A stretch of 36,814 bases of DNA from Perkinsus chesapeaki (lineage: Eukaryota; Perkinsozoa; Perkinsida; Perkinsidae): positions 1 to 36,814 of the forward strand of contig JAAPAO010000358.1 of the NCBI GenBank assembly GCA_013115145.1. The letters run 5' to 3'. The position numbers and the translations under genes are program-made. The notes below the pieces were generated by a model. The model worked only from the letters and a program-made list of their open reading frames with translations. It did not search any database and had not been told where the DNA came from. Positions 8,385 through 33,960 of this stretch are shown here, in pieces; within the stretch, counting starts at the first letter, position 1, and every line of letters begins with the position of its first letter.

Positions 8385-9071
8385 TCATAGGAAGTCTTCA
8401 GTTTCGGATACCTACATAAAGTGACCGGGTGGCATAAAAATGAAAAAAATAAATAAAAGTAATAAATAAATGTCACAAGGTGGCATGAAAGTAATATATT
8501 AATGTAATGAGGAGGTGGGTGCCTAAAATATCTCACCAATCCTGATAATGCATCATCCTGGTCAGATTCTTCACCATTCGGATCGAATTCCCCATCATCT
8601 TCATCGTCACTTCCAAACTCTTCGTTTTGAAGTCGCCAGATAGGATTGCTAAAATTCATTTCGAATTTCAATGCGCGCGGTCAAGTTTGTACCGTCTCAT
8701 TATCTCTCGCATTTCACTTGCCTCTCGCTCAACTTCACTCTCCGTCACCTCCAATATTCCATCTCGCCGCCGAGGCCTGACAGATATCCGAGGTTGAAGC
8801 TTGCAGGATACGAAAGAGCTCAGCATACCGCTTCGACGCAGCTCTCTCGTCTCCACCAGCTAGCGATGTCAGCCCAATCTGAAGGCCCTAGGAAGAAACG
8901 CTGATAAAATCGATCACGTAATCGGTTTACCGCATTCATATAGTCATCGTCTTCTTCGTCTTCCTCCTCCTCCTCCTCATCATCATCATCATCATCCAAG
9001 CTGCTAAGATCGGCCGGCGTTCCCACAGCACCTTGAGATGATATCCCGCCCGAGCCGGAACCAACTACCAT
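8385..9071 (-). CDS. Acidic-rich protein locus, unknown function (one or two genes)
   Basis: From ATG 9071 the frame reads a Gly/Ser-rich start, a run of about 18 Asp/Glu (from GAN/GAR repeats at 8941-9000), then NRLRDRFYQRFF-type residues. A 30-nt GT-AG candidate intron (8901-8930, family C) and an 80-nt intron (8777-8856, family B) lead into PRRRDGILEVTESEVER... and a stop at 8668. A second acidic piece starts at ATG 8659 (MNFSNPIWRLQNEEFGSDDE), is spliced across 8412-8536 and ends VSETEDFL at 8385. I could not find a frame-consistent join between the pieces, so this is either one gene with an unseen small exon or two adjacent genes. The composition suggests a nuclear chaperone-like or RNA/chromatin-associated protein, but no domain is recognised. 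Confidence 0.5.
8783..8811 (-). repeat. Family B stem-loop element in an intron
   Basis: Core GGTTGAAGCTTGC between gatatcc and ggatac; it lies inside the 8777-8856 intron. In the sense of the minus-strand gene it reads GTATCC...GGATATC, followed by TGTCAG as 3' splice site. Confidence 0.75.
8901..8930 (-). repeat. 30-nt family C candidate intron
   Basis: On the minus strand: GTAAACCG, then ATTACGTGATCGATTTTATCAG. GT-AG bounded, exactly 30 nt, stop-free and divisible by three, so splicing or retention gives the same downstream frame. The CGTGATCGATTT half-palindrome matches other introns. Confidence 0.6.
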
Positions 9072-9221
9072 CGAACCTGACCGACAACCATAGCACTTGC
9101 AAGGCGGTGGTACGAAGTGGAATCTAAAGCGTGATGATATGAAGTAAAATGAAGATTATGGAACAGTGGATGTTATTAGTTACCATACCAGCACATGGAA
9201 CTGGCAGAGTGTCGCTGGAGG

Positions 9222-10505
9222 CTATAAGCCTGTTGCTATACTTCTTTGCATCAGCCTTTCGAGCAACGGTTCAAAAGTTGAAACATCTACCCAGTGAACT
9301 CGGAACCGATAACAAGGTTCCTGACTGACTCGTTGTTGAAGCCTTCTCCTATTAGAAAGCGAGAAGAGCCACCAAAAACCGCACCCGGTAGAATTTGGAT
9401 ATCTCAAAGACTTACCAGAATCTTCTTCCGCTTCATCTCCATCATCATGGTCTTGGAAACAACTATTCGAAGGTGAACGGACCGATCGTTGTTGGAAATC
9501 TAATACTCCTCGGGTAGCCTGAGCGTCTCAACTTATTTTGTATCTTGCACGCTTCAACCTTTGATTCCTCCAGCTCCTGTACTGCTTTCGCCATCTTATC
9601 TTCTACGCTTTTGCATGGCTGATTGCCGGCAAGAGCGATATGGAAATTTTCTGATGAAGATCCAACCCAGAGTTTCACGAAAGCCAGCATCATCGCGGGA
9701 ACATCCAAATCGATCGCCTGATCGATTTTTCCCGTATCAACCGTCACTTCTATTCGACACTAACCTCCTCATCTTCTTTCACGCGCGCCACAAAATTAAT
9801 CTGATTGTCGCTCAAATCAACCTCAGTGATTTTCCTCCGATTCTTCAACGCGAATAGTAAAGTGATAAATCTACGTTGAGGAAATACAAGATTCAACAAG
9901 ATCGCAAGATTACCTACCCAAAGGTCGAGATGTAATTTCCCATCAAACTCAGTGTCTCCAGCACCGGAAAATCTCCACACGAAATCGATTGCGCGATCGA
10001 ATATACGCCGGCATCGAAAAGGAAATTCTCATCGAGTTCAAGTCGCTTCAGATTCTGAAGATATCCAAATCGATCAACTGGGCGAGCGCTCTTTACAAAC
10101 CGCCATACCCGCAGTCTTGCACATGTCTGTGTAAGGTTAAATGCAACTCCGTCCAAAAATCGGAAGGGGATCTTCTCAGGAGGTCGAGCTTGACTTTCTA
10201 AAAATAAAAGATACGCCAAATCGATCGACCGTTTCGGTTACTCACCGAGATCTGTCACAAAATCGAGGCACGGATTTCCCGAGCTCAACCGGCGATTGCC
10301 TAGTTTTGTCGTCGACTCTGAATCCATTTTTTGCATCGCGCCAATATGACATTCCGAAATAACCTGCGTTAAGAAAATGCAAGATTGACCAAGATTTCAA
10401 GATTCTCACCAAGTTCTCCAACTTTCTTCCAGTTCGTCCAATCGCATTTATAAGTCGTAAGAAAGCATCTGAGTATTTTCCGACGTAAATTCGATCGTTC
10501 GTCAT
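9222..10505 (-). CDS. Leucine-rich-rep. (ribonuclease-inhibitor type) protein
   Basis: Exons 10410-10505, 10246-10363, 10097-10197, 9918-10054, 9765-9870, 9559-9717, 9416-9518, 9291-9348 and 9222-9255 join in frame (about 303 aa from ATG 10505; the frame is open upstream to 10553, so an earlier start is possible). LRRs are clear: LENLVISECHIG, NLKRLELDENFLFDAG, VLETLSLMGNYI, ITEVDLSDNQINF, with the 28-residue RI spacing and a Gly after each N-x-[LI]. The tail is acidic (HDDGDEAEEDSGEG). LRR proteins of this type are protein-binding scaffolds; the partner is unknown. Eight short introns (35-67 nt) carry element families A (9871-9917, 10364-10409), B (9519-9558) and C (10198-10245, 10055-10096, 9718-9764). 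The last 35-nt intron hides a TAG, so retention ends the protein 10 residues earlier. Confidence 0.75.
9519..9558 (-). repeat. 40-nt intron made of an inverted family B element
   Basis: The minus-strand intron begins GTTGAAGCGTGCAAGATAC, so the element's own core supplies the GT, and ends GACGCTCAG. This is the opposite orientation to the copies in the transporter genes. Confidence 0.75.
9871..9917 (-). repeat. 47-nt family A intron in the LRR gene
   Basis: The whole intron reads GTAGGTAATCTTGCGATC... through CTTGTATTTCCTCAACGTAG on the minus strand. The frame before and after is the LRR frame. Confidence 0.85.
9981..10003. repeat. Family C-like palindrome within LRR coding sequence
   Basis: gaaatcgattgcgcgatcgaata lies inside an exon and codes YSIAQSIS of a well-formed RI-type repeat, so here the palindrome is exonic. 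It may be coincidence of codon choice or an exonised element. Confidence 0.5.
10198..10245 (-). repeat. 48-nt family C intron in the LRR gene
   Basis: Minus strand: GTGAGTAACC at the start, GGTCGATCGATTTGGCG in the middle, ATTTTTAG at the end. It contains one half of the TCGATC...GATCGA palindrome. Confidence 0.8.
10364..10409 (-). repeat. 46-nt family A intron in the LRR gene
   Basis: Minus strand: GTGAGAATCTTGAAATCTTG ... CTTGCATTTTCTTAACGCAG. It is nearly the same sequence as the introns at 20394-20441 and 13238-13290 in unrelated genes. Confidence 0.9.
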
Positions 10506-10585
10506 GATGCAGTGCGATCGTTTCCTGGCCGGCACTCTACCATCTTGACCTGCAACTAAAAGTGTTCGAATGTCCCACCACAGAG

Positions 10586-10606
10586 CAGCAGCAGCAGCAG
10601 CAGCAG
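10586..10606. repeat. (CAG)7 trinucleotide repeat
   Basis: Seven uninterrupted CAG units on +, reading poly-Leu (CTG) on the minus strand just upstream of the LRR gene. Confidence 0.95.
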
Positions 10607-11169: not shown

Positions 11170-11197
11170 TTATCTCGCATGCTTCAACCTAGGATAC
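11170..11197 (+). repeat. Family B element
   Basis: ttatctcgcatgcttcaacc then taggatac; the same core and ends as the intronic copies. Confidence 0.65.
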
Positions 11198-11418
11198 CAC
11201 TGGAAATTCTCCCTCAAATAGAAAGTTATGAGCTCTCATAAATTTTACCGGATTCATCATCGAATTCCATCTGTGCTGATTTCAACAAATGAGAAATGGC
11301 GAATCGCCCTCCATCAGCGTCACCAAATTTTTCGCTGGCTTCCGATTTCAGAAAATTTTCTTGTTTTTTTTGGTAAATTTACTGCCTTACATGTACAAAA
11401 ATCGGGTCCATAATGCAG

Positions 11419-11519: not shown

Positions 11520-11652
11520 GTATCATACCAGTATCAACCTAAGATACTCTCCTTACCACATTCCGTATCGTCAAGCTTCTCAAGTTCGCGTAATCGACGA
11601 GTCTTCTAAAACTGCACAAGTTGGAATCAGTCAACTTGAAAATATAATTCAT

Positions 11653-11670
11653 GAATCGCTTCGCTCCGCC
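11653..11670 (+). repeat. Family E element (GAATCGCTTCGCTCCGCC)
   Basis: The same 16-18 nt string occurs at 27051, 27140, 32695 and, inverted, 22337, in or beside introns of different genes. Confidence 0.85.
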
Positions 11671-12792: not shown

Positions 12793-12820
12793 GTATCTTA
12801 GCTTGAAGCCTGCGAGATAC
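12793..12820. repeat. Family B element, 28 nt
   Basis: gtatcttagcttgaagcc then tgcgagatac. A sister copy follows 56 nt later at 12877-12904. Confidence 0.85.
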
Positions 12821-12876
12821 CCAAAAACCCCTTTAACTTCCTCCAAGTCACTCTGACCATTCACAAGCACCCCCAA

Positions 12877-12904
12877 GTATCTTAGCTCGAAGCGTGCATG
12901 ATAC
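12877..12904. repeat. Family B element, 28 nt
   Basis: gtatcttagctcgaagcg then tgcatgatac; direct repeat of 12793-12820, in the 3' flank of the U1-70K gene. Confidence 0.85.
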
Positions 12905-12966
12905 TCCATAGCTTCACTGACAAACTCAACACCCACTCCTTTAAGAAGCACCGAACTTTCAATCAA

Positions 12967-15900
12967 CTATTCCTCATCTCTATGATGTCGATGATGACGC
13001 CTCTCGCGACTTCTCGATCGTTCTCTTCTCGAATCTCTCCGCTCGCGATCACGATCACGGTCACGACTAAACAAATCCGTTGAGGAAATGCAAGTCAGAG
13101 CAAGATTGCATGATTCCCATTCCCATGTTTACCGAGATTCACCATCATCTCTCGCTCTTGCTCGATCACGATCACGGTCTCTGAGACGCGGGCCGAACTC
13201 GTCAAATTGCCTATGTGGCGGTGGGCCCTCATCATATCTAAGCGTTGAGGAAATGCAAGATTTAGCAAGATTACCGAGATTTGCTCTCACCTCGAGCCTT
13301 TGCCTTTACCTTTACCCCAACTGGATTCGTATGGTGGCGGTGCACCATACCTGGACAAAGAAATGATATAAATATCTTACTACAGACTGAAATGCACGCT
13401 TCAACCTCATCAAAAAATGAATTTTCCCATTCAACATATCTTTCCTCTCCATTAAATGCACGCTTCAACCTCACTAAGAATGAATATTCCCACTCAACAT
13501 ATCTTTAGTCTCCATTAAATGCACACTTCAACCTCCCCTGACCTTACCCCTTTCCACGACTGCTGCCGCCTCCTCCCTTTCCAAAATCGTCCATTCCCCA
13601 CCTCGGTGGCCCTCCCTTCCCCTTCCCCTTTCCATAACCGTCATCATATCCTCCTTTTCCTTTACCCCAGCTCGACATCCTCGGATGACTGTGATATCCT
13701 TGCTCCCATTCAGCAGCAGGTGGACCGAAGGCACTAGGAGGCACTCCAATAGAACTCTGAGGACCCTTCTTCGACTTTGGCTTTGCGATCCTAAACAACA
13801 CATCTGCGCGCGACTAATATAACTTATATTAGATTATATAAATCATTTATTACAAAAATTATATAATTCATTTTCATGAAAGAACACCCTATGAACAATA
13901 CTAAATATTCAACCCCATCATAGAGATAATCTTTTCCCATGAAAATTGCCGACTGCCCCTTTTCTCCTCCCAAAGAGCAATATTATCCAACCCAACGCCA
14001 CTTAGAGATGCAATTGGCACGAGCGGTCAAATGGCCAAAAGGTCGACTCTTTACAGTGCAATTGCCAATTGCACCGCAAAGAGCCGATCTCCCCGGTAGT
14101 CAACAGATTTCGCAAAAAAGATACCTCGCACCGAGGGGAGGTCGATTACGGACCATCGTGATTGATTCCACAAATCTTTCCAACAATACTCTTTTGATTT
14201 AAGATTGTTAATAAAATCTATAGAATTCCAATTGTCATCTTCCATAAATTAACATCAACTCCATCGCATCTCACGAAATGCTTCCACATTCCGCAAAAAA
14301 CGAAAAATTCCGAATGTCAGCTTCGAGCTTCAAACAACGAAAACTGTATTTTCGGAAACTACCTTTTTCACCGGTTATTTCATACTTTTAATCCAAGTCT
14401 AAATGGGAATATTTCAAACCCCTCCCATTATAACCTTCCGCTTCCTCTTCCTCCTCCCATCCTTCTTGGAATCCACCCCGAGACGGTTCTGCCGCGCTCG
14501 ACATCAACCAACACTCGACGACCGTCAATTTTAATACCGTCAGCCTACAGTCGGTTTAATAGGATACAATTTCGTGGCGCGTGACTTTATTACATTCTTG
14601 TATGCCTGTTTCAAGCTGCTTTCGCTGTCAAATTCAATAAAAGCATATCCTCGGCTTCTCCCATCCAAATCATGTATAATGGTCACCTGGCAACTCACAT
14701 TACCGCGCGCCACGAAATTGAATAATAGAGCATCTCATATAGCAAATGATTAAAAGATATTAATTACGATAACTATTCGACAGCTGCGTCAGTAGCTGCA
14801 GGTATTTCCACCCGAACCTTCGAGGTATCTTTTCGCACTGTGAAGATTCCCAAGGTATCTTTTCGCACTGTAAAGATTCCCAAGGTATCTTTTCGCACTG
14901 TAAAGATTCCCAAGGTATCTTTTCGCACTGTAAAGATTCCCAAGTTATCTTTTCGCACTGTAAAGATTCCCAAGTTATCTTTTCGCACTGTAAAGATTCC
15001 CTCACCTTTCGTATTGGTCCATATTCTCCAAAGATACGTTCCAATTGCTTCTCGGTCGTCTCATAGGCCACTCTAGCGACAAATAGAGTTTTAAATGGAT
15101 CTCCAGATACCTGAAAAAGATACTCTTGCGAATTGTAAAGAATTTAAAGATATTCTTCGCACTATAAAGACTTTAAAGATACTCTCCGCACTATAAAGAA
15201 TTCAAAGATATTCTTCGCACTATAAGGACTTTAAAGATACTCTCCGCACTATAAAGAATTTGAAGATATTCTTCGCACTATAAAAAAATTAAAAAAAATA
15301 ATGTATGGAAATTTATTTATATAAATTTATATATGGAAACTGTTAACGGCGGTATTGCTAGTCTTCTTCCCACCGACGGCGCTACTTTATCGTTATCCTG
15401 AGGCTTATAGTCATCTCGTAGACGTTTAATAAGCTCCTCGTAACTGACAAGTAATATCTTTCAATATATCAAATGCAACCTTCAACCTCGACCACCAAAT
15501 GCACGCTTCAAGCTCAGATATCAGTATTTAGATTGCTAATATCAATGTTACATGTCCACCCGACACCCGAAGCTGAGCTTCCTCCGATTCTCAGAAAATA
15601 AATTAATACGCCGCAAATGAAAAATGAATAACCAATCTGCACGTTGCATAAATTCCACTACCTCCCTCAGGAAACGAAGGGGAATTCATTGGACTATAAA
15701 TCAAAGAGGAGATGCAGGTGAACCGCGAAGAACAATTTCTCCTCTCAATGGATACAGGTTAACGGAGTTGACCCAGTTAATTCGGGGACGACTGGCCAGA
15801 GTGTGCACTGAAACCTCTAAACGCTCGGAAGGAAGGAAGGAATCAAGAAAGCTTGCATACCCAGTACGAACAATACACCCGGCGAATCTCCGAATGGAGT

Positions 15901-16743
15901 AAATGAAGGAATTCAACGGTAATAATAACAGAACGCTCCAACAGAAAATGATACACATTATGATTTTAAGCGACCACATTTTTGAAGTATTAGTCTTCGA
16001 TCTCGAAGATTTGTCATCGACCCTTTCTCACCAAACTCTTCACCGCACAAATCAACCATAGTTCTGCGGACTGTCCTCCCGAGCATCTTTCCAAATTTTC
16101 AAATAACTCATTTTCATGGGGTTTACTAGGCCATTGTTGCGTGAAGAGAATTAAGATATTTCAATCTTTCTACCACTGCGATTTCAGGAATCTTTTATGG
16201 GACACTGAAGCACGGTGTAACCTCCGACTTGACGGAGAGGGGCGCCACTATATCCAACTAATTTCATATTTATATCCGAGTGGTCGCCGGTTCGAATCCC
16301 CCGACGGTTATTATTACTTTTCCTTTTTCTCCTTGACTTTCCGTTTCTTCCTCTCCAAAGGAGTTTCATTGTGTGTTCGCTCCGGTGGCTCACCGTCCTC
16401 GAAGTACTCCACGAAGTCGGTTAAACCTGAATGGGACATCTTAGCTTTAAGCGTGCATGATACTAGAGAGGTCAAGTTATGAATTTCAGTTGAAACTATC
16501 TCAGAGGCCCCCAGGTTTAAGCATGTGGAACATAAAGAATAATACATCAAAAACAAGCATATCAGCCTACTATCCCCCAGTATCCAAGGTGGAAGCACGC
16601 ATGATCAAAAGAAGGTTGATTCACTTACCAGTCAAATGACGAGCAGTCACAGGAGCCTTCCGGATTTGCGGCTTCTCGTAAGCTTGCGGCGGCCTCGGGC
16701 AGAAGAGGGCCAGCAAATGCGGGGGCATTCCCTGAGCGCTCAT
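12967..16743 (-). CDS. SNRNP70: U1 snRNP 70 kDa protein (U1-70K)
   Basis: Ten exons join in frame: 16629-16743, 16318-16426, 15386-15443, 15006-15110, 14594-14686, 14435-14544, 13548-13790, 13291-13350, 13133-13237, 12967-13066 (365 aa). U1-70K binds stem-loop I of U1 snRNA and helps define 5' splice sites in the nucleus. Diagnostic parts: N-terminal [14 protein letters not shown] (family LPPNLLALFAPRDP); [32 protein letters not shown] (RNP2) and [14 protein letters not shown] (RNP1) of the [23 protein letters not shown]; then IPRRMGGG. The C-terminus is a Gly/Lys-rich stretch followed by an Arg/Asp/Ser tail ([12 protein letters not shown]), shorter than in animals. The nine introns (49-644 nt) carry families A, B and D, a tRNA-like piece, and two related tandem arrays around exon 4. 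The ATG at 16743 follows a pyrimidine-rich leader. Confidence 0.95.
13067..13132 (-). repeat. 66-nt family A intron (U1-70K intron 9)
   Basis: Contains CAATCTTGCTCTGACTTGC then ATTTCCTCAACG on the minus strand, with a short extra GATTTGTTTAG before the next exon. Confidence 0.85.
13238..13290 (-). repeat. 53-nt family A intron (U1-70K intron 8)
   Basis: GTGAGAGCAAATCTCGG ... AATCTTGCATTTCCTCAACG then CTTAG. Both flanking exons stay in the Gly/Arg-rich frame. Confidence 0.9.
13351..13547 (-). repeat. Tandem triplication of a family B element in U1-70K intron 7
   Basis: On +, aaatgcacgcttcaacctca and close variants start at 13390, 13456 and 13518, with units of about 63-66 nt that also share ttcccaytcaacatatcttt and tctccatta. 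The intron thus grew by local tandem duplication. Splice sites GTAAGG and GTCCAG lie outside the repeats. Confidence 0.85.
14056..14074. repeat. Palindrome in U1-70K intron 6
   Basis: Arms GTGCAATTG and CAATTGCAC around C, 19 nt, extended by CTTT...AAAG outside. It shows the odd-centred palindromes also occur in a long intron. Confidence 0.85.
14545..14593 (-). repeat. 49-nt U1-70K intron 5 with family D motif
   Basis: GTAATAAAGTCACGCGCCAC then GAAATTG ... GACTGTAG. The CGCGCCACGAAATTG string is repeated in inverse orientation 120 nt away in intron 4 (14703-14720). Confidence 0.8.
14823..15002 (-). repeat. Six 30-nt tandem units in U1-70K intron 4
   Basis: Units start at 14823, 14853, 14883, 14913, 14943 and 14973 and differ by one or two bases (aggtatct versus agttatct; gtgaag in the first). 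On the minus strand each unit reads ten codons ([10 protein letters not shown] or one-residue variants) and the array is stop-free and in phase with the RRM exon just upstream. Confidence 0.95.
15118..15290 (-). repeat. Diverged 30-31 nt tandem array in U1-70K intron 3
   Basis: Six units built on aaagatattcttcgcactat, alternating attcttcgcac and actctccgcac types, so the higher-order period is about 61 nt. The core (AAGATA...CGCACTRTAAAGA) is the same as in the 14823-15002 array on the other side of exon 4. Confidence 0.85.
16282..16317 (-). repeat. tRNA T-arm-like fragment at the 5' end of U1-70K intron 2
   Basis: On +, cgccggttcgaatccccc and gacggttattattac end exactly at the intron boundary (GTAATAATAACC on the minus strand). 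ggttcgaatcc is the pol III B-box/T-loop consensus. A D-arm-like cgagtggt precedes it at 16277, but no anticodon arm lies between, so it is not a tRNA gene; a SINE remnant is likely. Confidence 0.55.
16438..16463 (-). repeat. Family B element in U1-70K intron 1
   Basis: atcttagctttaagcgtgca then tgatac. The intron (16427-16628) also holds two more degenerate copies at about 16509 and 16582. Confidence 0.7.
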
Positions 16744-16782
16744 GGTGGAGAAAGGGAAACTTCCAGATGCTTGACATATTTC

Positions 16783-16810
16783 GTATCTTGCACGCTTCAA
16801 GTTTAGATAC
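16783..16810. repeat. Family B element in the U1-70K 5' leader
   Basis: gtatcttgcacgcttcaagt then ttagatac, about 40 nt before the ATG at 16743. Confidence 0.85.
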
Positions 16811-16934: not shown

Positions 16935-16993
16935 CTGGGCGCCGCAGAATACCGTTGAGGAAACACAAGTCTGCGCAAGAGCTCAAGATTCAC
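16935..16993 (-). repeat. Family A intron-like element, probably in the U1-70K 5' UTR
   Basis: Minus strand: GTGAATCTTGAGCTCTTGCG ... GTGTTTCCTCAACGG ... GGCGCCCAG; GT-AG bounded at 59 nt, no coding frame on either side. Confidence 0.65.
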
Positions 16994-17465
16994 CCAAATC
17001 GGTTGTCCCAGCTGGCAATGCCTTCGTGCTCAGTTGCCTTGACGATTGGTACTATTATACAGGTCGACTGATTGATCTATTTATTAAATAGATTCCTATC
17101 TTGTACTGTTGTGCTCCCTTTGTTCATTAGTTTGCTACTTCCCATATATGTACACAGAAGTTATGAAGACTTATCGACTTCAGGATGACCGTAGACCGGC
17201 GTATCGTTGACTTAATCAAGCTTAATAGCTCAGACCCTTCCCCTTCAGTTGATTAACACTTGCTTCACTCTTCTTCATTCAACATCGCTGGACATCCCTG
17301 TAGGTCCAGTGATATAGCCTGGAGTTCAAGACAGCAGCCGTATTGTACGGGAATAGCTGTCCAGAGACCCCCCTTCAAAGATGACTTAGGTTAACGACGT
17401 TGCTGATCTTTAATTGACAATGCCAACAAACAAGCAATAAGGTGGAATGAAATCCAAAGGACTCA

Positions 17466-25500: not shown

Positions 25501-26425
25501 ACCGCGCAAAAATTCCCAAAATTTGCACCAGTTGGAAAATTTCCATTTTTCCCAAAAATTTCGTCGCCTCTTTCGCGATGTCGTGGAGCAAGCAATAATC
25601 GATCAGATCCTGTCTCTGCGTGGCGTCCGCCAACTGCAACAATTTCCGTACCGATCCAACCTTTCCAATTCCATCTGAAGCCTTCACAGCCAATAAATGC
25701 TGAACCCTCTCGCTCGGTTGAGCATTCAACTTCGCCGCCGCAATCATTATTTCTCCAAAAATATCCGACCTTGAAGCGTGCATCTCACACACAGCTGCAA
25801 ATATCTTTTCTATCATCTCCGCATTTGTATCAATTTTCTCATTGCCAACCACCAACCTCGGTTGCATCCTCGCCAGACAGCAATACGCCTCAATCGTCCA
25901 CCAGTTTAATTCCTCCATCTGGACCGCCAAAGCTTCGATGCACATTTCCGCGAATCTAGGATCCCTCAAATGTTCGCATCTCTCCAAAGCCAAACATGTC
26001 CGAGCCAGCAACTGCGCGTCACCGCCAAGTCCATGCAACAACGCCGAAAATATCTCCTGTAAGATCTTATTCGGCAATTTCTCGCGCGCCACAATATTAA
26101 TCGCCCCCACAAGCTCCTTTCTCGAGTATCTTTCAATTCCGCAAGACACTGCCCGACCAATGGCAGCCGTTCCGAGTCGTCCAGATGAAAATTTTCCGGA
26201 ATTTTCCGAAAAATTTCCGAAACTTTTCAGAAAGTTCCTTCTTGTTGATCGCCGAGATACTCCTCCAGTATGCAGCAGACGGGCCGGTGTCACGCCGATT
26301 TTCGTGGCGCAGTGACGCGACGGTTTTCTCCTCAACCGTTTCAAAAACAATATGGCAGATTTCGGCAGTTCACGAACGCAACGGCGTCTACCGCAGGACT
26401 TCAGGGGCTCGACCATTTGCAACAT
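22574..26425 (-). CDS. Mitochondrial-type alpha-helical-repeat protein (OPR/HPR/RAP-like), with an uncertain 3' part
   Basis: ATG at 26425. Exons 24995-26425, 23846-24562, 23728-23779 and one starting at 23679 join in frame. The N-terminus is Arg/Lys-rich without acids for about 60 residues (GRRRCVREL, LKRLRRKPSRH, ARLLHTGG), like a mitochondrial presequence. About 700 residues follow as repeated helix pairs with pattern L-x-x-[IL]-[AL]-x-[LA], for example LLQLADATQRQDLIDYC, QIQQLLAVLSHHMEEIPEPI, VQIVALLTAFSKLKI. This is typical of octo-/heptatricopeptide proteins that handle organelle RNA in algae and alveolates; no C-terminal RAP domain was found. Small exons down to 22574 (EVLLAEEVVGNILSS, DSGESISAVDSMSDFPEIF, YEVDTISDTSKAA, FEIESVISDLE, MEIEEVTEELVRNEL) continue an open frame, but may be a second gene. 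Introns include 24563-24994, 23780-23845, 23680-23727, 22925-22973, 22693-22743. Confidence 0.65.
22693..22743 (-). repeat. 51-nt intron: hybrid of family C and family A end
   Basis: Minus strand: GTAAGC, full palindrome AAATCGATCG-AG-CGATCGATTT, then GCGTTTCCCCAACACAG, which matches the 3' end of family A. It links the two families and suggests recombination or nested insertion. Confidence 0.8.
22846..22894 (-). repeat. tRNA T-arm-like fragment just inside an intron
   Basis: The minus-strand intron begins GTAAGCGAGAGGTCGCCGG then TTCGATTCCC. It has a B-box match in the opposite orientation to the U1-70K copy, and no tRNA fold. Confidence 0.5.
22925..22973 (-). repeat. 49-nt family C intron
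   Basis: GTGAGTTCATGGCTCGT then ATCGATCGCGTGATCGATTT and GATTTCTTTCAG. Confidence 0.85.
23680..23727 (-). repeat. 48-nt family A intron in reverse orientation
   Basis: The sense strand reads GTGATGCGTTGAGGAAATGC then AAGATTTCAAGATTTG ... GTAG, the reverse complement of the usual family A intron. It is 3n long and stop-free. Confidence 0.8.
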
Positions 26426-26816
26426 CGAGGAATCTTAGCCTGAAGCGTGCAACATACGAATTAGGTTAACAAAACACAATCGGTTCCACCGAAACCTTCA
26501 CGAAAGAGATACTGATAATACTGACCATTCAATCAAAAAAATCTCGCTCCACATCACATTTTCCCGCGCGCCACAAAACCACCAACCAGCAAGAAATCTT
26601 TTAATATCAAAAATGTAGCTCTCCGCGGCAAACGACTTTTTCATTATCCGACACATCGGTATGACAGGGTCTGCTACAGGGGGAATATCACCACCTCGAC
26701 GAGCAAGTATGAGAACTAGATTAGATATAATCACTACGTTAGGAAAATAATCAACAACAACAACCGTCACGCGCCACAAAATGAGTCAGTAATGAGCGTG
26801 TAACTGTGAAGGTAAA
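26426..26816. other. Gap between transporter 1 and the helical-repeat gene
   Basis: 391 nt with a family B element adjoining the helical-repeat start codon (26430-26457) and family D motifs at 26564-26579 and 26766-26782. No gene seen. Confidence 0.6.
26430..26457 (-). repeat. Family B element abutting the helical-repeat start codon
   Basis: On the minus strand GTATGTTGCACGCTTCAGGC then TAAGATTC; the ATG follows four bases later. The CTTCAG and TAAG in it could serve as splice acceptors for the leader. Confidence 0.75.
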
Positions 26817-29800
26817 TTATCCGCCAGCCGATTCCAAAAGCCTCTCGTTTAAAAGATTCTCTTTTCCTGTTTCTTCCTCGACAACCTTCGGCTTCCACAA
26901 AGTGATGAGCATCACTCCACTGATCACCGTAAACATACCTAAATCGATCACGTGATCGATTATCAACCATATCATATCACACAAAAGTCGCCTTGGGGAT
27001 TTCCCGAAAAGAATCCATTTCTCCCGTTGCGATTATTAGAAAAATATTCCTGAATCGCTTCGCTCCGCCTATCATCCAAAAAACTGTAGAATAGCCCTTA
27101 GCAATTTTCCCAAAATAATCTTCCAGAAGATATAAAACGTGAATCGCTTCGCTCCGCCGTCTTCCTATTACCTATCAACTTTGTAGCTCCCGGAGCTGCC
27201 CCCAGGAACATATAAGCAAATATTAATCCCAGAATAGAGTTAGATGCCGCAATGACATTGACCACAGCAGTACAAGGATACGCCACGGCTTCATTCAAAG
27301 CCGCCACGCCGATGAACTGCGCGAGACCGGACACGTTGGGCCAGAAATATCTGAAAAAACGCTCCAACTGAATCGCAAACGTGGCCAGCGCTCGCACTGT
27401 TGTCGGTAATAATAGCATTTATCGAATATAACCTCGCTGAGATTATTTTCTGTAAGTTTTATAGTAATATGTAGTCAACTTGAATCCGCATCAGATCGAC
27501 CAAAATAAAATGTGATTGATAACCCAAGTCAACGAAATAAATTAATTTGCTACTTTGACCAGAAATATGGAACAAATTGCCAACTATCTTTCATCACTCT
27601 CCGACAAATCGAGGGAGGGGGAGCGCAACCTTTGTTGCACTGGTAAGACTTTCATGAAAATTAAATAATTATAAAGGGAATCATTTAAAGAAGTCGGACT
27701 CTGCACCAATCCATGATGTGAACCCCTCCCGTGGCCTCACGTAGAGGAGACCGATTCTCCAGCCAAGCACAGCTAACTACTGTTGAGCCGTATTATGGTG
27801 TAAATAAATTAATCCATCTATTAGGTTAAATAATAACCAAAAACATCAACGCAAAGTACTCAACCCACCGCCCAAGAAAGTTAATCTTCAATTCTCAAAA
27901 TGGCTCCCCGGGCGACAGGGGGCCTCACGGAAAAATAATTTAACTTAATAATAAAAATACAATAGGCGACACAGTACGGGGCTTGCCCTTTTCAATCAAG
28001 TTGGCCGCCAGTCCCGCGTGACACAATCGGCAGCTTCAGCATTGCCAGTGAAATCCCTCCTCTATTACAACGATCCATAATCCTTAGGCGCCTCGGAAGC
28101 TCCTTGTCTCGCCGCATAGACAAGCGCAATAATTCCAATAAAAAGCATGGTGAACAACCTGCCTGTGAAGCGGGATCTGAAAAAAATCGATCACGTGATC
28201 GATTATGAAGAATAACCAAACTCAGCTAGTCTCACCGAAAATGCCTTCCTAATGCGGCGGACGCGAGATTCGAGAGGGAAAATTTCCGGAATTTTTGGAA
28301 AATATATTTGATGACAAAATAGAGTCTCAACTAGATAATCTCCTTCGCCTCTCGGAACAAACATACGATAAAAAATTAATTAATTTCGGAAAAAAATTAA
28401 ACCAAACAAATAGGAGATTATTTCCCCCTTGAACGTAGACCGCACTGCAGTGAACTCCTCCAAACTGAGCGAGCAAGTTCTCCCTCATTTTCTAGGACAT
28501 TTTCCCATTCCAAAATCGCCAAGAACTCTCCTTGTCCATTGCACTGTCCGGCAGTCCCTATTACATTGCAGCCTGTCCCTCAATACAGGTATACCGCATG
28601 AAGAGCAAACTACTAGCAAAAGTAAGCATGCCAAAGATAGCATAGAAAAATCCAATCAGATGGCCCACTCGAGAATCAAACGCGGCCATAACCACCAAGC
28701 CTGACACCAGGAAATCTTGCTCATCTTGCTAATTCTTGCATTTCCTCAACGCTACCTGTCAGAACTATCAAAATTGCCACCCCTTGCATCAACGACAGTT
28801 TTTCATGATACAGAAAATGACAGGCTATTCCGACCACCTGAAAAAAATAAAAAAATAAGAAAAATAAAAAAGAAAAAAAAGAAAAAAAGAAAAAGTTACG
28901 AAAATTTCACAAGTTGACAGAAATACAAAATATAATGATTACATGTCACCGAAAATTCAGGTTAGTTTGCCTCGTCGTTTGTGCGAGTGCGGTCGCATAA
29001 CGTTACGCGTCACCAAAGGCCGCCTACGATGGGATTCACCCTGCTGCAACAGCAGCTCTTCCTGATGTTTTGATACGTGTCAGCTTTATTACGTGTATTG
29101 CCGTATCGTCTTAGTTGATAAAGTCGTAACTTACTATAAAGCTAGTTTCGAAATTGCTCAACCACAATTGTTGAGTTGAAGTGGGACGTATACGTTGAAT
29201 GCAAAGGTACTGGACGAATACCTTTGAGATGCTTTCCTATTCTGAGATGACAAAGGCAAAACTGCTGGATGAAACAATGATGGATCAACAGAAAGGAGAA
29301 AATGACACCACTGGACCAACTGGCCACTGGATGTAATAACACTGGATCAGATGATATACACCCATCGCACGCAACGTGTGCGTGCAGACGATTGTGCTGA
29401 GTATGCTGGGTAGCCAATGGCTACCAGGTAGCCAATGGTAGCCAATGGCGATTGTGCTAGCATGGCTACTAGCCATGCTATACCGTAATACACATCGCAT
29501 TTCAGCCCTCATCCCTCTGTGGTACTACACCTTCCAGCATGCACGTTATGGCGTATTTCTCGCTTGCCTTGTCTTCACACGCTAGCCGTTTCGCAAGATA
29601 TTAATCATGGAATGCCACTCATAAACTACTTATTATCAAATGTAGGATTCTTGCTGTTGCATAACGTTTGATCTGGTATAACACCCTCCGCTCCCGGGTG
29701 AAGGGCTCGTCGTCAACAGTTGTTTTCTGTACAGTGTAAATATAGCACCCAACTTGCTGGTGGACGGACTCTACGAGTACCACCGATTCTCGCGCTCGAG

Positions 29801-31206
29801 TATGATAATTTAACGGCAAGAAAGAGACAAACAAATTCTCCCCAAAATGGGGAAAATCAAAACAACAAAAAACGCTTGAAACCCCTCTCCCATTAATACC
29901 ATAATATCCGATGACGATACTGCCATCAACGGTCCTGTCGAATCCGGATCAGTTGCGAATGCCCGCTGAATCATCAACAACGAGAACCCAATGCATAGAC
30001 CTGTAAGCGGAAAGCGCTCGCCCGGGTGATCGATTTAATAATACCAACGTACCTTGTCCGACTGTTAGAGCTTTCGATGTGAAACTAAGCGTGGATGAGA
30101 ACTTTGCTCCACCGAGTCGATAAATTCTGACATCCTCATCGGTGTAGAAAATCGTACCAAATTTGAACCTGGGAATTGTGGTGTCCAATTTGAAGGGCGA
30201 TAAACTAGTATTAAAAATAAAGTAATAAAACGGACAGCATTATTAAACAAATAACGAGTCTCTTCTTTGGCGCCACCCTAATAAGATTCCTAATCTTATA
30301 TAATACATCTCGAAGCTCCGTGAAGATAAGTTCTCTCAATGGCACTCGTGAAAGACGAGCCTCAGGCAACTGGACGACGACGCCGACGATGAGCTGCCGC
30401 CTTTCGTTCGAAGCCCGAAAATCTTCTAATAATGTCCAATTTATCGAGAGGGAAGAATTGTTTCATCACCATTGCTCCATATTTGGTATCATCACCATTG
30501 AAGGCGATGAATGACTATATAACGTCGGCTTCGGCGGCGGCGGAAAAAGGAAAAGCAGGAAAAGCCTGCTGGAATCGAGACTGCAGTAGCAACTCAGCAG
30601 TTGAGGTGTAAATGATCCTCCTTCATGACACACTTCGTGCCACGAAGAAGGCATTAAAAAGTACTAAAAGTTATCACTGATATACAAGACGGTCTGTGAT
30701 GTTAGTTGTTAAATTTATACAGTATCATCATTAGTTATATCATTACATTATTAGATGGCAAATCTTACCATTTAAAACCTCTGATGACCAATTAACAGAT
30801 AAATGAGTATATGTACTTCCGTGAAGAGAAAATCGATAATAATAAAGTGATATAATATTATAATGCAAAGTGATATAATAAAATGATAATAATAAAGTAA
30901 TATATATTTGTTAATCAACTATATATAATTTTCTCAATGTCTCAATAGAACCTATCGGATCAATTGCTGAATGTTATCCATATGATTCCCTAAAAGAACC
31001 CTTGCCCATCATCATCATTACTACCACAAATAGACCGCCGGTATCATCGCCAACACTCCACAAGACGCCCAGTTCTGACCGACTGTCGCCCACGGGTTCG
31101 CTCCTTCTTGCTGGTTGCAATAAGATATTAAAAAATTAGACACGCCGAACGAAAAGCATGCCACCAGAGACCAAAGGACTGCCTGGGGGGCCACCTCGAT
31201 CGCCAT
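26817..31206 (-). CDS. DMT/EamA-like multi-pass membrane transporter, copy 1
   Basis: Eight exons: 31025-31206, 30053-30168, 29900-30000, 28756-28837, 28565-28700, 28069-28176, 27172-27350, 26817-26938 (341 aa). All joins are GT-AG and match copy 2 in position and phase. The product is about ten hydrophobic helices: FGVSNFLISYCN, LCIGFSLLMIQRAFATDP, QGVAILIVLTGLVVMAAFDS, IGFFYAIFGMLTFASSL, TMLFIGIIALVYA, AYPCTAVVNVIAASNSILGL, MFTVISGVMLITLWKP. The paired four-/five-helix halves and the [ST]AVVNVIAASNS end are typical of the drug/metabolite transporter fold (EamA, TMEM144-like). The substrate cannot be told; nucleotide-sugar, carbohydrate or metabolite transport are options. The acidic/basic C-tail faces the cytosol in related proteins. 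Three introns are large (388-1062 nt) and absorb other repeats. Confidence 0.8.
26941..26962 (-). repeat. Family C palindrome at the 3' end of transporter 1 intron 7
   Basis: aaatcgatcacgtgatcgat then ta; the exon starts two bases away (minus-strand ...CGATTTAG before GTATGTTTACGG). Confidence 0.9.
27051..27159 (-). repeat. Two family E copies in transporter 1 intron 7
   Basis: tgaatcgcttcgctccgcct at 27051-27070 and gaatcgcttcgctccgccgt at 27141-27160 in direct orientation, 90 nt apart in one 233-nt intron (26939-27171), which also ends in family C. Confidence 0.9.
28177..28235 (-). repeat. 59-nt family C unit at the 3' end of transporter 1 intron 5
   Basis: GTGAGACTAGCTGAG ... ATAATCGATCACGTGATCGA then TTTTTTTCAG. 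It has its own GT and AG, so it looks like a complete small intron nested in a 388-nt one. Confidence 0.8.
28701..28755 (-). repeat. 55-nt family A intron in reverse orientation (transporter 1 intron 4)
   Basis: The sense strand reads GTAGCGTTGAGGAAATGC then AAGAATTAGCAAGATGAGC ... GTGTCAG. The position equals copy 2 intron 4, which holds two family B elements instead. Confidence 0.9.
28838..29899 (-). other. 1062-nt intron 3 of transporter 1
   Basis: It is five times longer than intron 3 of copy 2 (216 nt). It contains a poly-A/G stretch (28838-28900), palindromes at 29409-29425 (GGTAGCC/GGCTACC around AAT) and 29458-29480 (TAGCATGGCTA/TAGCCATGCTA around C), and three tandem tagccaatgg words. 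No coding frame is recognised. Confidence 0.6.
29409..29480. repeat. TAGCCAATGG repeats with two palindromes
   Basis: gtagccaatgg occurs at about 29410, 29428 and 29438, flanked by the 17-nt and 23-nt palindromes named for the intron. Confidence 0.85.
30001..30052 (-). repeat. 52-nt intron with half a family C palindrome (transporter 1 intron 2)
   Basis: GTACGTTGGTATTATTAAA then TCGATCACCCGGGCGAGC ... CGCTTACAG. Confidence 0.75.
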
Positions 31207-31226
31207 GCCAGGAAAAAAGCTCACTG

Positions 31227-31248
31227 AAATCGATCACGCAATCGATAA
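31227..31248 (-). repeat. Family C palindrome in the leader of transporter 1
   Basis: aaatcgatcacgcaatcgat then aa; followed on the minus strand by TTTCAG and, 17 nt on, the ATG at 31206. Confidence 0.85.
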
Positions 31249-31667
31249 TACGATATGATATTAAGTAGTGTTCAATCACTTTTTTCCTCCCGATCAAGCA
31301 GGAAAATTTTGTTACGGAATCGCTTGCCTTGGAGATTCAAGGTTTAATCTCCGCGTTAGCTCACCGAGCTCATTAAGACGACGTCGTTCAGGAACACCGA
31401 CGGAGCTCCATGCTGGCGCCTGGAACTACATAAAATATCTGCATTCCATATCCCCTCCTCCTCCTCCGTATCACTAGTACCCATGGTAAAACTAGATTAC
31501 CAATTAATAACACCACGACATCAGAAGGATCATTCTGAAATGCTCTCACACGGCAATGTAACAAATATCAACCTTTTCAAGACAACCGAGGTATCACTCG
31601 GAAAGCTCCGTCATCATCATCACTGCGCATTAATAAAGTGAGCTCCTATACGGTCGCTCCATGCGTA

Positions 31668-31737
31668 CCTGAATGGCCTAACGGTAGAGCACTCGGCCTT
31701 AAACCCATTGACCCTTGTTCCATCCCCGCGGCCTACT
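31668..31737 (+). other. Degenerate tRNA-like sequence (not a functional tRNA)
   Basis: tggcctaacggtagagcact matches a tRNA D-arm/A box well and ttgttccatccc weakly matches a B box about 30 nt later. The acceptor ends do not pair and no clean anticodon stem forms, so a SINE or tRNA relic is more likely. Confidence 0.35.
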
Positions 31738-31975
31738 ATTTAACATCTAATTTCTCCGCTACTTGTGGCTGAACCACAAAAGCTGCTTCCGTTCGTCGAG
31801 TCATTTGGGAGCTTTAAATCTTTCTCTTTCACAACATCATCCGAAGACTCCTGAAGAAAATAAATTTAGATCACCGATGAATATACCCTCCTCCGCAAAA
31901 GATTAATCTTGTTTTATGAGTCTATTTAGGTATGTGCGAGATAAGAGGCAACTCAAAGGTTGAAGCAGGAAAGAT

Positions 31976-33960
31976 TCATCGAAGGTTAACCAGTTGACCT
32001 CCTCTCACCTCCTTCGGCTTCCATAAAGTCATCAGAGATACGCCAGCAATTACAAAAAACATACCTGAAAAAATGATAAGATCGAACAGTAAACCAAAAA
32101 CTGACAAGTCAACAGATATCGAAAAAACTTTCGTACATACGCTCCGAATAATTTCGCGGAAAATTTCTGAAAATTTCTTACCAATTATTTTTGGCGTTCC
32201 AGGAACAAGTCCGAGTAGGACCCAATTAAGCAATAAGACAACTATCGAATTCGATGCCGCTATGACGTTAACCACTGCTGTTGAGGGGTAAATGAGCGCA
32301 CGGTTGAGGGCAAGGACACCGACGGCTTGGGATGCACCCGATACCATTGGCCAGATGTACCTGGTGAATCAACCGTTTGGGTATCATGCACGCATCAGGC
32401 TAAGATAGAGAGGATCAATCAGTGACGAGAAAATGCTATCTCGGGATGACAAGTGCAACAACCAGGAGAGCAGATCGATCGTATACATGCAATTAATCCA
32501 CAACAACCAATACGTATCCAAGCTTGAAGCGTGCAGGATACAAAATACGCCAACTTACATATCAGCCCACAAATATGAGTTTGACACAATCAATCCTCCA
32601 TTAAATCCAGCCGAAGCAAGCGCAACTAGTCCCATGAAGAACATTACACCCATTCGGCCAATGAATCCCGACCTAAAACAAAAATGGTAAACAAAAATCG
32701 CTTCGCTCCGCCCAATCCTTACCAGGCGTCTATTCCGTCGATACAAGAGCTTCGGATGCAGACTATACTAGCCGCAAAACTGAGCATTCCAAGTATGGCG
32801 TAGATGAATCCAAGTGGACTTCCACCAGAGCTCGAGTCGAATGAGGCACCCATTACGATGAGACCTGAAAGATATCTCAAGTCGAGCGTGCAAGATACAA
32901 AATGGGTCGGAAGTTACAGACAAAAGCATTCAGGCTGAGTACTCGAAAATATCCTCGGTTGGAGCGTGCAAGATACACAATAGGTCGAAGAAAAATCCTA
33001 CCGGTTAGCACGACTAATATTGCTATTGCCTGCGTCCACGATAGCTTCTCATTGTACACAAAATGACAGTAAACGCCAATAACCTGAAAAGAAAGAACAT
33101 AACCTTCCGGAGCAAAATAGATACTTTAAACGCCGTCAAGAAATCGAATAGAGCCCAATATTAGAAAGATGACCCCAACAAAGGGCGGAAACATTTCTCC
33201 CTAAATAAAAACTGCTTGCGAAAACCGCACTCAAAAGGAGCGTAGAAGCGATTCACTTTGAAGAATTTCTTTGGAATTTTTGGGGTGGTAAGGTATTACT
33301 AGTATATCGGAGGAGATGACAGCAGTGAGCGGCCCTGATGCGGCTGGGTCGGTAGCAAACGCCCACTTCATCATTAGTTGGGACAAACCAACACAGATAC
33401 CTGACAGAAGATAATGATACATAGAAAGGGAGGATGTAGCTACCTCCCACTAACGTGAGTATCTTAGCTCGAAGCGAGATTTCGGCAGGCGGCTGATGCT
33501 TTTCGCCATTGGAAAGGTAGACGTATCCTGCCTCGGCGAGCTCGGGACTGCAAGTCGAGCTTTTTTGGATCTTTTGGGATTCCAGAAAGTCAGCAGTAAA
33601 GAAGACTCTACCAATTTTAAACCTGAGAAAAGGTATCTTGGGTTGAAGCGTACAAGATCCGTAAAAAGCTGACTTATTGCCTAGAGCAGAACGACGAAAA
33701 TTATATCGATAACTGATAACGGTAACTTCGAAACCCGACGTATCTTAGGTTCAAGCGAGCACGATACATAATAGGTCAGCTTACCAAAAGTAAACTCCAG
33801 TTAGTACTCCTATCAATCCCGAAGTGAACCATATCCATCCAATGACCGCCCAAGGGTCGATACCATCAACATTAGTGTACGATATCAAAAAGTTAGTCAG
33901 GCCGAACGTAACGTTGGAGATGACGGACCAGCCGACGCAGTAGGGGGAGACCTTCACCAT
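31976..33960 (-). CDS. DMT/EamA-like multi-pass membrane transporter, copy 2
   Basis: Eight exons: 33785-33960, 33444-33622, 33300-33400, 33002-33083, 32723-32864, 32559-32672, 32182-32360, 31976-32064 (353 aa). ATG at 33960 chosen because it aligns with the copy 1 start. About ten hydrophobic helices: FGLTNFLISYTN, LIGVLTGVYFWFKIG, ICVGLSQLMMKWAFATDP, SWTQAIAILVVLTG, LGFIYAILGMLSFAASIV, GVMFFMGLVALASAGFNGG, YPSTAVVNVIAASNSIVVLL, MFFVIAGVSLMTLWKPKE. Exons 3, 4 and 7 have the same lengths as copy 1 (101, 82, 179 nt). The loop after helix 2 is 21 residues longer than in copy 1. Same fold and uncertainty on substrate as copy 1. Introns 1, 4 and 6 each hold two family B copies; intron 5 holds family E. 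Confidence 0.85.
32381..32541 (-). repeat. Two family B copies in transporter 2 intron 6, opposite orientations
   Basis: gtatcatgcacgcatcaggc at 32381 and gtatccaagcttgaagcgtg at 32514 are in inverse orientation relative to each other within the 198-nt intron 32361-32558. Confidence 0.85.
32695..32713 (-). repeat. Family E element in the 50-nt intron 5 of transporter 2
   Basis: aaatcgcttcgctccgccc fills the centre of intron 32673-32722. Confidence 0.9.
32871..32976 (-). repeat. Two tandem family B copies in transporter 2 intron 4
   Basis: gatatctcaagtcgagcgtg (32871) and atatcctcggttggagcgtg (32949) are both followed by caagatac and a-aatrggtcg, so the repeat unit is about 77 nt and includes sequence outside the stem-loop. 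Intron 32865-33001. Confidence 0.9.
33459..33480 (-). repeat. Family B-like sequence inside a transporter 2 exon
   Basis: gtatcttagctcgaagcgag then at; on the minus strand it codes ISLRAKILT. Copy 1 has SFTSKALT there, aligned without a gap, so either coincidence or conversion by an element must explain it. Confidence 0.5.
33633..33767 (-). repeat. Two family B copies in transporter 2 intron 1
   Basis: gtatcttgggttgaagcgta at 33633 and gtatcttaggttcaagcgag at 33740. Each is preceded or followed by its own GT/AG-like signals (GTCAGC...TTTCTCAG and GTAAGCTG...TTCGAAG), like two small introns around about 50 nt of spacer. Intron 33623-33784. Confidence 0.85.

Follow-up and report, generated by a model that had tools for sequence, protein, structure and literature searches.

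A degenerate 42-bp repeat in short and older introns of Perkinsus chesapeaki, a likely introner-like family

There is good support for introners as a source of new introns. In a stretch of DNA from Perkinsus chesapeaki (contig JAAPAO010000358.1, 36,814 nucleotides, hereafter the window), a short repeat lies in introns of several genes, which raises the question of whether it builds introns or enters those that already exist. The host of the repeat is probably a shellfish parasite. Our comparisons make it likely that the repeat is an old, degenerate introner-like family, competent for splicing, which would both make introns and enter older ones.

Extent and architecture of the repeat

The core of the repeat, GTATCTTAGGTTGAAGCGTGCAAGATACAAAATAGGTCAAnT, measures about 42 nt and has sharp boundaries. 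The original prediction described a 28-nt stem-loop element, which corresponds to the first 28 nt of this core; similarity continues for 14 nt past one arm and then stops sharply. The family itself was well seen, with 18 core copies in the window at E<0.01 (42-position model, R1). The predicted GTATCTT and AAGATAC ends around a 14-nt spacer do not describe the window copies, none of which has both arms exact around a spacer of 10-18 nt; nor does the proposed core string, as GCTTGAAGCGTGC is matched exactly only twice and the majority core is AGGTTGAAGCGTGC. Fifteen places in the window differ from the 28-nt consensus by at most 6 of 28 positions, against a mean of 0.0 in 50 first-order Markov sequences of window length. 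Genome-wide, 122 places carry both 7-nt arms exactly and 143 places differ from a 21-nt half of the core by at most 2 mismatches. The repeat is confirmed as a dispersed family, far above chance. It is very degenerate (mean identity to the consensus 77%) and is present in either orientation with respect to genes. Similarity beyond the 42 nt, as expected of a longer parent element, was not found among 53 copies, identity outside the core being 0.23-0.28 even when only the 40 closest pairs are considered.

Copies of the window outside the two genes treated below are the following (scores from R1):

8784..8825, plus strand: core copy, the strand given being the one on which it reads forward (GTATCTTAGG...), reverse to a minus-strand acidic ORF in which it may give a candidate intron of 52 or 80 nt (first proposed at 8777-8856); 47.7 bits
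9526..9567, minus strand: core copy, forward in an LRR-like minus-strand ORF, 5' arm mutated (GAATCAA), reading frame open also without splicing, so that the intron first proposed at 9519-9558 is no more than a candidate; 53.4 bits
11156..11197, minus strand: core copy, reading forward in an ORF of that strand, putative intron of 45 nt with open spliced frames on both sides; 44.4 bits
11506..11547, minus strand: core copy, reading forward in an ORF of that strand, putative intron of 46-58 nt with open spliced frames on both sides; 44.6 bits
19719..19760, minus strand: core copy; 44.6 bits
26430..26471, plus strand: core copy adjoining, upstream, the ATG of a minus-strand 507-aa ORF; 46.1 bits

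RNase H, cysteine-rich and other ORFs are also present in the window.

Two samples of copies were used, and the model scan covered the window, selected stretches and 100 kb picked by location. Sample 1 comprised 57 copies (51 of the 52 matches of one search and 6 of the 11 of another), many of them found through the core itself, so that tests on it rest on the flanks and not on core positions. Sample 2 comprised 40 stretches with 48 exact-arm places. Thirty-seven were taken from 50 listed among the 122 exact-arm places of the genome; the remaining 13 of the 50 had either been taken already (4, L001-L004) or were dropped by eye for a spacer unlike the family (9). The other 11 places lay in or beside stretches from a list conditioned on YAG.

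The arms occupy positions 1-7 and 22-28 of the 42-position core in forward orientation. One of the predicted "inverted ends" is consequently internal, and terminal inverted repeats at both ends, the mark of a DNA-transposon introner or MITE, were not found. Target-site duplications (TSDs) were not found at any tested boundary of 44 copies (k=3-6, over a range of offsets), and for k=3, 4, 5 and 6, respectively, 168, 147, 14 and 31 of the 200 permutations did as well as the best counts. Decay of such duplications at 77% identity is possible.

That the arms form a selected pre-mRNA hairpin uniting branch point and splice sites, or that the repeat is another RNA signal, is hardly credible. The 7-nt arms can pair, with 83.5% of stem cells forming standard pairs; shuffled arms do so as often (84.6%). 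Covariation was not found in the stem, where two-sided change is seen in only 1 of 7 pairs, and the fold z-scores of four introns range from -0.3 to -1.5. No Rfam family matches the window at gathering score, which disfavours a conserved ncRNA as well. The stem-loop of the original prediction, taken as a structure under selection, thus finds no support.

Probable short introns made of the repeat in unrelated genes

Follow-up was directed to genes with recognised proteins. For forward copies in La, MCM4, eIF3a, prohibitin and OLA1, the spliced junction aligned without a gap to proteins of solved structure; for a reverse copy in Sec62, the alignment spans the junction and has a single gap, of 1 residue, two residues ahead of it. 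Protein support across the junction is weaker for HBS1, and the introns of a DBP2-like and a PRMT3-like gene are likewise less well verified. Pfam searches of spliced peptides gave no match for 7 of 10 in one set and 5 of 10 in another, and the matches for PRMT3-like and prohibitin were below the Pfam cut-off. The verified introns are GT-AG. Among 16 introns, 30 of 120 pairs were similar at E<=1e-5, the database for these E-values consisting of the 16 introns only and within-gene pairs being included; the introns of OLA1 and prohibitin share 95% identity over 42 nt. The predicted sharing of intron sequence between unrelated genes is borne out by the six proteins that align across their junctions, and this continuity supports the view that entire short introns of unrelated genes consist of homologous sequence.

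The single-copy introns of La, eIF3a, HBS1, DBP2-like and PRMT3-like measure 45-53 nt. By eye, the core lies within 10 nt of both intron ends in 6 of 9 single-copy introns, namely these five and Sec62, while MCM4, OLA1 and prohibitin depart from this at the 3' end. At the MCM4 site the matches of three paralogues are contiguous. This site may be old too, because paralogue C570 has an intron displaced by 1 nt and paralogue C68 one about 4 codons upstream.

Orientation matters for splicing. The forward core supplies a 5' splice site, GTATCTT, and forward splicing leaves at least 20 open codons on both sides at 35 of the 48 exact-arm places, versus 12 of 48 in reverse (Fisher 4.8e-6) and 41 of 114 at other GTATC sites (Fisher 1.5e-5). 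Without the YAG-conditioned places these counts become 28/37, 8/37 and 34/90. Forward exact-arm copies are thus not matches scattered at random without enrichment in introns. Thirteen of the 28 best models for forward splicing use the core's own GTATCTT, and 4 models of another set read GTRAGTATC. Sample 1 shows an excess of splice-like words at up to 20 nt from the core. In sample 2, reverse splice-like words were not enriched (5 and 7, versus 4.5 and 4.8 expected) and reverse open-frame counts stayed at background level; forward 3' words dropped to 7 versus 3.8 (p 0.075) once the YAG-conditioned places were removed. A coding score based on hexamers, with 43 long ORFs as training set, did not discriminate well enough to be of use.

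We propose that a forward copy would bring its 5' splice site as the terminal GTATCTT, in some copies joined to GTRA to give GTRAGTATC, and would probably bring a branch point within AAAATAGGTYAA. A nearby YAG would then suffice for its removal as a 44-79-nt GT-AG intron, while a reverse copy would usually borrow an upstream GT. Spread of the repeat by insertion, an event that we infer, would in this way have placed whole introns in unrelated genes. A different model, with an upstream TTGACC as branch point and a hairpin that brings the 3' site closer, was discarded: TTGACC is the apparent 5' site in one case (L024), and most of the introns verified elsewhere have the opposite orientation.

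Copies in older introns

Two genes of the window hold introns with paired copies. The first is a transporter gene (transporter 2):

33623..33784, minus strand: intron I1, 162 nt, two reverse copies; orthologues run across the junction
33633..33674, plus strand: core copy at the 3' end of I1; 46.0 bits
33740..33781, plus strand: core copy at the 5' end of I1; 53.7 bits
32865..33001, minus strand: intron I5, 137 nt, two reverse copies; orthologues run across the junction
32872..32912, plus strand: core copy at the 3' end of I5; 30.6 bits
32949..32990, plus strand: core copy at the 5' end of I5; 51.2 bits
32361..32558, minus strand: intron I7, 198 nt, two copies; paralogues P0006-P0008 run across the junction
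32367..32408, minus strand: core copy at the 3' end of I7, forward in gene; 41.7 bits
32514..32555, plus strand: core copy at the 5' end of I7, reverse in gene; 53.7 bits
31950..31991, plus strand: weak core copy following the presumed 5' splice site of the final intron (not seen in paralogue T1); 21.0 bits

The second gene we take, from its resemblance, to encode U1-70K:

16427..16628, minus strand: intron 1, 202 nt, GT/AG ends with core copies close to both, the conserved N-terminus being read on either side
16436..16477, plus strand: core copy at the 3' end of intron 1, reverse in gene; 46.9 bits
16580..16621, plus strand: core copy at the 5' end of intron 1, reverse in gene; 25.8 bits
16769..16810, minus strand: core copy upstream of the start codon; 51.8 bits
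12793..12834, plus strand: core copy downstream of the stop; 35.0 bits
12877..12918, plus strand: core copy downstream of the stop; 39.9 bits
13392..13473, minus strand: partial copies without stem (13392-13409 and 13456-13473), covering model positions 20-37 only; 17.1 bits each

The coordinates first given for U1-70K intron 1 and the three transporter-2 introns hold, the latter by their orthologues or paralogues, as does the placing of copies upstream of two start codons (16769-16810 and 26430-26471). The supposed intron of copies at 13351-13547 proved to contain the stem-less partial copies only, none above 17.1 bits. With the U1-70K stop read at 12967-12969, the two copies 12793-12834 and 12877-12918 fall some 50-175 nt downstream of it and are therefore probably not intronic.

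Transporter-2 orthologues from P. olseni (partial) and P. marinus are 84% and 82% identical over 74% of the query. Both are continuous across the I1 and I5 junctions; at I7 both protein models end. As read, I1, I5 and I7 share position and phase with introns of the paralogues T1 and TB, and I1 also with T3, and the 42-position model found no core copy in T1, T3 or TB. The I5 site holds a different repeat in T1 and a 41-nt intron without a copy in TB. Since these positions are common to copy-free paralogues, the comparison indicates that at I1, I5 and I7 the intron came first and the repeat entered it. The original idea that the element builds introns is accordingly contradicted at all three transporter-2 introns that can be judged in this way. 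A candidate transporter-2 exon at 33200-33132 was found to be false by comparison with paralogues.

These same sites would also suit an ordinary small mobile repeat, a MITE-like relic that inserts only into existing introns or UTRs, repeat-only introns arising later by deletion of the old sequence: the position is older than the copy in three of three cases, the I5 site of T1 is filled by a different repeat, and nine repeat-free introns measured in T3 and TB are themselves only 41-57 nt long. We nevertheless hold this reading to be unlikely, given that a forward copy carries a 5' splice site of its own and that the 45-53-nt single-copy introns leave just 3-11 nt beyond the core, less than any of these nine introns.

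The paired copies sit against both splice sites, at 7 and 9 nt in U1-70K intron 1 and at 6 and 3 nt in I7. In all four two-copy introns that could be placed, the copies are at opposite ends (simulated p ~2e-6, in a test chosen after the arrangement had been seen). Exchange of intron ends between genes, by gene conversion or reverse splicing, with a favoured sequence replacing others and no mobile element, would account for copies abutting both splice sites of these long introns, for the failure to find TSDs and for different repeats at one intron position in paralogues. It would not lead one to expect copies that are probably outside introns, copies in both orientations relative to genes or flanks without similarity, and we regard it as very improbable. 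An introner-like family, in which paired copies against both splice sites mark entry into older introns, is the reading that we prefer; the repeat would be a non-autonomous DNA element, now inactive.

Relation to known elements and consequences for intron turnover

MITEs are small, non-coding, dispersed elements with inverted arms. The 42-bp repeat resembles them in all these respects and differs in being extremely short, in its arms not lying at both ends and in that no TSD was found. The introner transposons of Micromonas and Aureococcus, as Huff et al. are said to have described in 2016, are short and non-autonomous, carry one splice site, take the other from the gene and reportedly show clear TSDs; the Perkinsus family would share the short, non-autonomous form and the use of one carried and one borrowed splice site, but no TSD was found in it.

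In the main text of Gozashti et al. 2022 (PMC9860276), introners are defined operationally as similar introns in at least 4 non-paralogous genes, with similarity starting within 10 intronic nt of both ends. Family medians there range from 30 to 654 nt, one type carries one splice site and borrows the other, and families without TSDs or TIRs exist. Similar introns were found here in at least four non-paralogous genes. As far as that text goes, the Perkinsus family agrees with these introners in its short similar introns in non-paralogous genes of a probably aquatic protist, and with that one type in its carried and borrowed splice sites. It differs in its strong degeneracy (77% to the consensus), in 3 of 9 single-copy introns whose core is not within 10 nt of the 3' end, and in copies that are also paired in introns at older positions. 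The main text of that paper does not mention Perkinsus, and no report of introners in this group was found among the freely accessible papers searched. In the alveolate parasite Amoebophrya, according to Farhat et al. 2021 (PMC7789003), repeated introns have inverted-repeat motifs. Inverted repeats of 8-20 nt join the two intron ends there, direct repeats of 3-5 nt are present, and the majority of introns are non-canonical. Perkinsus is likewise an alveolate parasite with inverted-repeat motifs in repeated introns. Its verified introns are GT-AG, unlike most of those of Amoebophrya, one arm is internal, and neither an inverted repeat joining the intron ends nor direct repeats at fixed boundaries were found.

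More tentatively, and with considerable doubt, the 42-bp element may be a portable intron in both directions, reverse or paired copies taking over the splice signals of older introns and replacing their sequence. If so, a forward element would be a nearly complete intron by itself, and repeat families, this one among several in the genome, would replace intron sequence at fixed positions. Intron turnover without intron gain would then be a second outcome of introner activity. To our knowledge, the fate of old introns in introner-bearing genomes has been little studied. Within one gene family, members differ at the same intron position, which is free of repeats, filled by one family of repeats or filled by two copies from a different family; consequently, it would be directly testable in Perkinsus whether introners act in the creation of introns alone or in their replacement as well.

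Extent, age and abundance of the repeat unit

The original prediction described a 28-nt element made of GTATCTT, a 14-nt spacer and AAGATAC, occupying introns in five or more genes. A shared dispersed element is indeed present, with 15 places in the window at no more than 6 mismatches of 28 to the consensus (mean of 0.0 in 50 first-order Markov sequences), although its form is different: nowhere in the window do two exact arms stand 10-18 nt apart. Alignment of 59 copies revealed that conservation extends a further 12-14 nt beyond one arm, and a model of the resulting 42 positions, the core, detects 18 copies in the window at E<0.01. Beyond the core, similarity between copies drops to chance level, with an identity of 0.23-0.28 even in the 40 most similar pairs. 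Core copies share a mean identity of 77% with the consensus (n=53; best pair 93%), the true mean being lower because copies were found by core likeness. By this measure core copies are old.

Throughout the 35.4-Mb genome (884 contigs, the window being contig C288), both exact arms separated by 10-18 nt occur at 122 places (2 in the control), while the 21-nt half AGGTTGAAGCGTGCAAGATAC has 143 matches at no more than 2 mismatches (0 in the control). Core copies are unevenly spread and the window is copy-rich; 100 kb chosen by place contained 4 copies at E<0.01, three of them within a single stretch. A genome total of about 1,400 core copies is only a rough extrapolation.

Other repeats were encountered in the window. 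The 55-nt intron I5 of transporter 1 (T1) consists entirely of a second repeat, about 42 nt long (CGTTGAGGAAATGCAAGA...), which also occupies apparent introns elsewhere (28701-28755; also 9874-9915, 10367-10408, 13078-13119, 13243-13284, 16953-16994 and 20399-20440). Exact 18-nt matches to it number 78 across the genome, against 0 in the control. Two apparent U1-70K introns contain tandem repeats of the GGTATCTTTTCGCACTGTAAAGATTCCCAA type, with units of 30 and 29 nt (14793-15001 and 15100-15322) that also hold GTATCTT and AAGAT motifs. GAATCGCTTCGCTCCGCC repeats are found at 11638-11670, 27037-27069, 27126-27158 and 32680-32712, some being intronic (e.g., I6 of transporter 2, T2, and T1 I8). 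Further short families are CGCGCGCCACAAAATT and the palindrome AAATCGATCACGTGATCGATT (9777-9801, 14699-14723, 25430-25454, 26078-26102, 26560-26584; 22716-22746, 26941-26971, 28184-28214, 31227-31257). Segments 1690-1989 and 5148-5447, in adjacent threonine-rich, cysteine-containing ORFs, are 94% identical and represent a local gene duplication. ORF 33-1430 contains an RNase H domain (4.4e-7) and probably belongs to a retroelement. One window ORF has a Perkinsus olseni match.

Protein evidence for core copies as introns

Based on protein continuity, several core copies are introns. Intron 16427-16628 of U1-70K falls between conserved N-terminal stretches in our reading. The junctions of T2 introns I1 (33623-33784, minus strand) and I5 (32865-33001, minus strand) are spanned by the P. 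olseni and P. marinus orthologues, and that of I7 (32361-32558, minus strand) is crossed by paralogues, the orthologue models stopping there. Elsewhere in the genome, five single-copy whole introns lie within known proteins and have a junction that aligns ungapped to solved structures.

Introns bearing a core copy and the protein evidence at their junctions
Prohibitin, 72 nt, forward: aligned to solved structure, junction ungapped
OLA1, 62 nt, forward: aligned to solved structure, junction ungapped
MCM4, 62 nt, forward: aligned to solved structure, junction ungapped
La, 53 nt, forward: aligned to solved structure, junction ungapped
eIF3a, 52 nt, forward: aligned to solved structure, junction ungapped
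Sec62, 59 nt, reverse: single 1-residue gap, 2 residues ahead of junction
HBS1, 47 nt, forward: weaker case
DBP2-like helicase, 45 nt: recognisable protein almost wholly on one side
PRMT3-like gene, 46 nt: recognisable protein almost wholly on one side

A longer intron, in a gene that we take to be RPS24, carries a reverse core copy close to its 5' end. When 16 introns were compared with one another, 30 of the 120 pairs, some from one and the same gene, matched at E<=1e-5, small values partly explained by a database of these 16 introns only; HBS1 and La introns match at 86% over 44 nt, OLA1 and prohibitin introns at 95% over 42 nt.

Two copies have other contexts. A reverse copy at L016:1494-1535 lies within a presumably DPH1-like reading frame that is open across it; it could be translated or, with AAG as the acceptor, spliced out. 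Another, at L042:6760-6801, is shortly upstream of the start of what we assume to be an adenosine-deaminase-like gene, a third 5'-leader case.

Working direction of the core

The strand that reads GTATCTTAGGTTGAAGCGTGC is termed forward. At 48 exact-arm places (sample 2), at least 20 open codons on both sides after splicing were found for 35 places forward and 12 reverse, against 41 of 114 other GTATC sites in the same stretches; reverse is therefore not above background in that sample. For the 37 places not drawn from a YAG-conditioned list, the counts were 28, 8 and 34 of 90, respectively. Among 57 core copies (sample 1), open frames after splicing numbered 23 forward and 17 reverse, with about 7 expected from random positions.

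In sample 1, the 20 nt next to the core held an excess of splice-site-like words, both in reverse (5', 13 vs 5.3 expected; 3', 17 vs 5.5) and forward (5', 11 vs 6.0, p 0.03; 3', 12 vs 5.5). From 20 to 80 nt they were near expectation, except for forward 3' words at 20-40 nt (12 vs 5.5) and reverse 5' words at 60-80 nt (9 vs 5.3, p 0.08). Sample 2 repeated the forward excess (5', 11 vs 5.3; 3', 11 vs 4.8) but not the reverse one (5', 5 vs 4.5; 3', 7 vs 4.8); at the 37 places, forward 5' words stood at 9 vs 4.1 and forward 3' words fell to 7 vs 3.8 (p 0.075). Forward is therefore the main working direction of the core. Reverse use is demonstrated by the Sec62, transporter and U1-70K introns.

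A usable 5' splice site stands at the start of forward exact-arm copies, and the core's own site is used directly in 13 of the 28 best forward models. The branch point would lie in AAAATAGGTYAA, the target would supply the 3' splice site, and the family would have spread through DNA insertion. Hairpin function found no support (83.5% of cells paired vs 84.6% in shuffles), nor did target-site duplication, looked for at core copies.

Occupied introns and relation to known introners

In the four placeable two-copy introns (T2 I1, I5 and I7; U1-70K I1), the core nearer the 5' splice site begins 3-11 nt past it, and its partner stops 6-10 nt short of the 3' splice site. Under random placement this has a probability of 0.02-0.09 per intron, jointly about 2e-6, for a test picked post hoc with the arrangement already known.

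T1 and T2 were compared with paralogues T3 and TB on contig C219, one of which reads as P. chesapeaki protein FOL47_005285; contigs C390 and C306 hold additional, weaker matches. Introns I1, I2 and I3 are common to all four genes; I5, I6 and I8 are present in T1, T2 and TB, as is I7 (in TB as read), and all four are absent from T3. Core copies lie within T2 I1, I5 and I7. The I1 intron is 46 nt long in T3 and 49 nt in TB, and TB has a 41-nt intron at I5. A model search up to E 5 returned no core match in T1 (26471-31950) or at the T3 and TB loci. Copy-bearing positions of T2 are thus common to copy-free paralogues, so the repeat arrived in T2 introns that already existed. Separately, T3 (L045, C219:21064-22205) retains I1-I3 and lacks I5-I8, a 3'-biased loss of the kind that cDNA recombination would be expected to leave.

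Where an intron of 45-53 nt carries one copy, it holds little beyond the core, suggesting either intron creation or complete takeover. At the MCM4 intron site, three paralogues match contiguously, a fourth has an intron 1 nucleotide off and a fifth has one about 4 codons upstream.

In Gozashti et al. 2022 (PMC9860276), the first operational test for introners is the presence of similar introns in at least 4 unrelated genes, which the core family displays; by their second test, similarity runs from end to end in 6 of 9 single-copy introns, judged by eye. Neither terminal repeats nor target-site duplications were seen in the family, features that, according to that paper, are not in every introner family. 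Compared with the Amoebophrya elements described by Farhat et al. 2021 (PMC7789003), it has other splice sites and another repeat layout. A search excluding subscription papers and supplements located no report of introners in Perkinsus, the Amoebophrya paper alone joining both topics. The core repeat is an introner-like family, within the literature searched new to Perkinsus, that combines probable intron making with intron occupation, an unusual mix.
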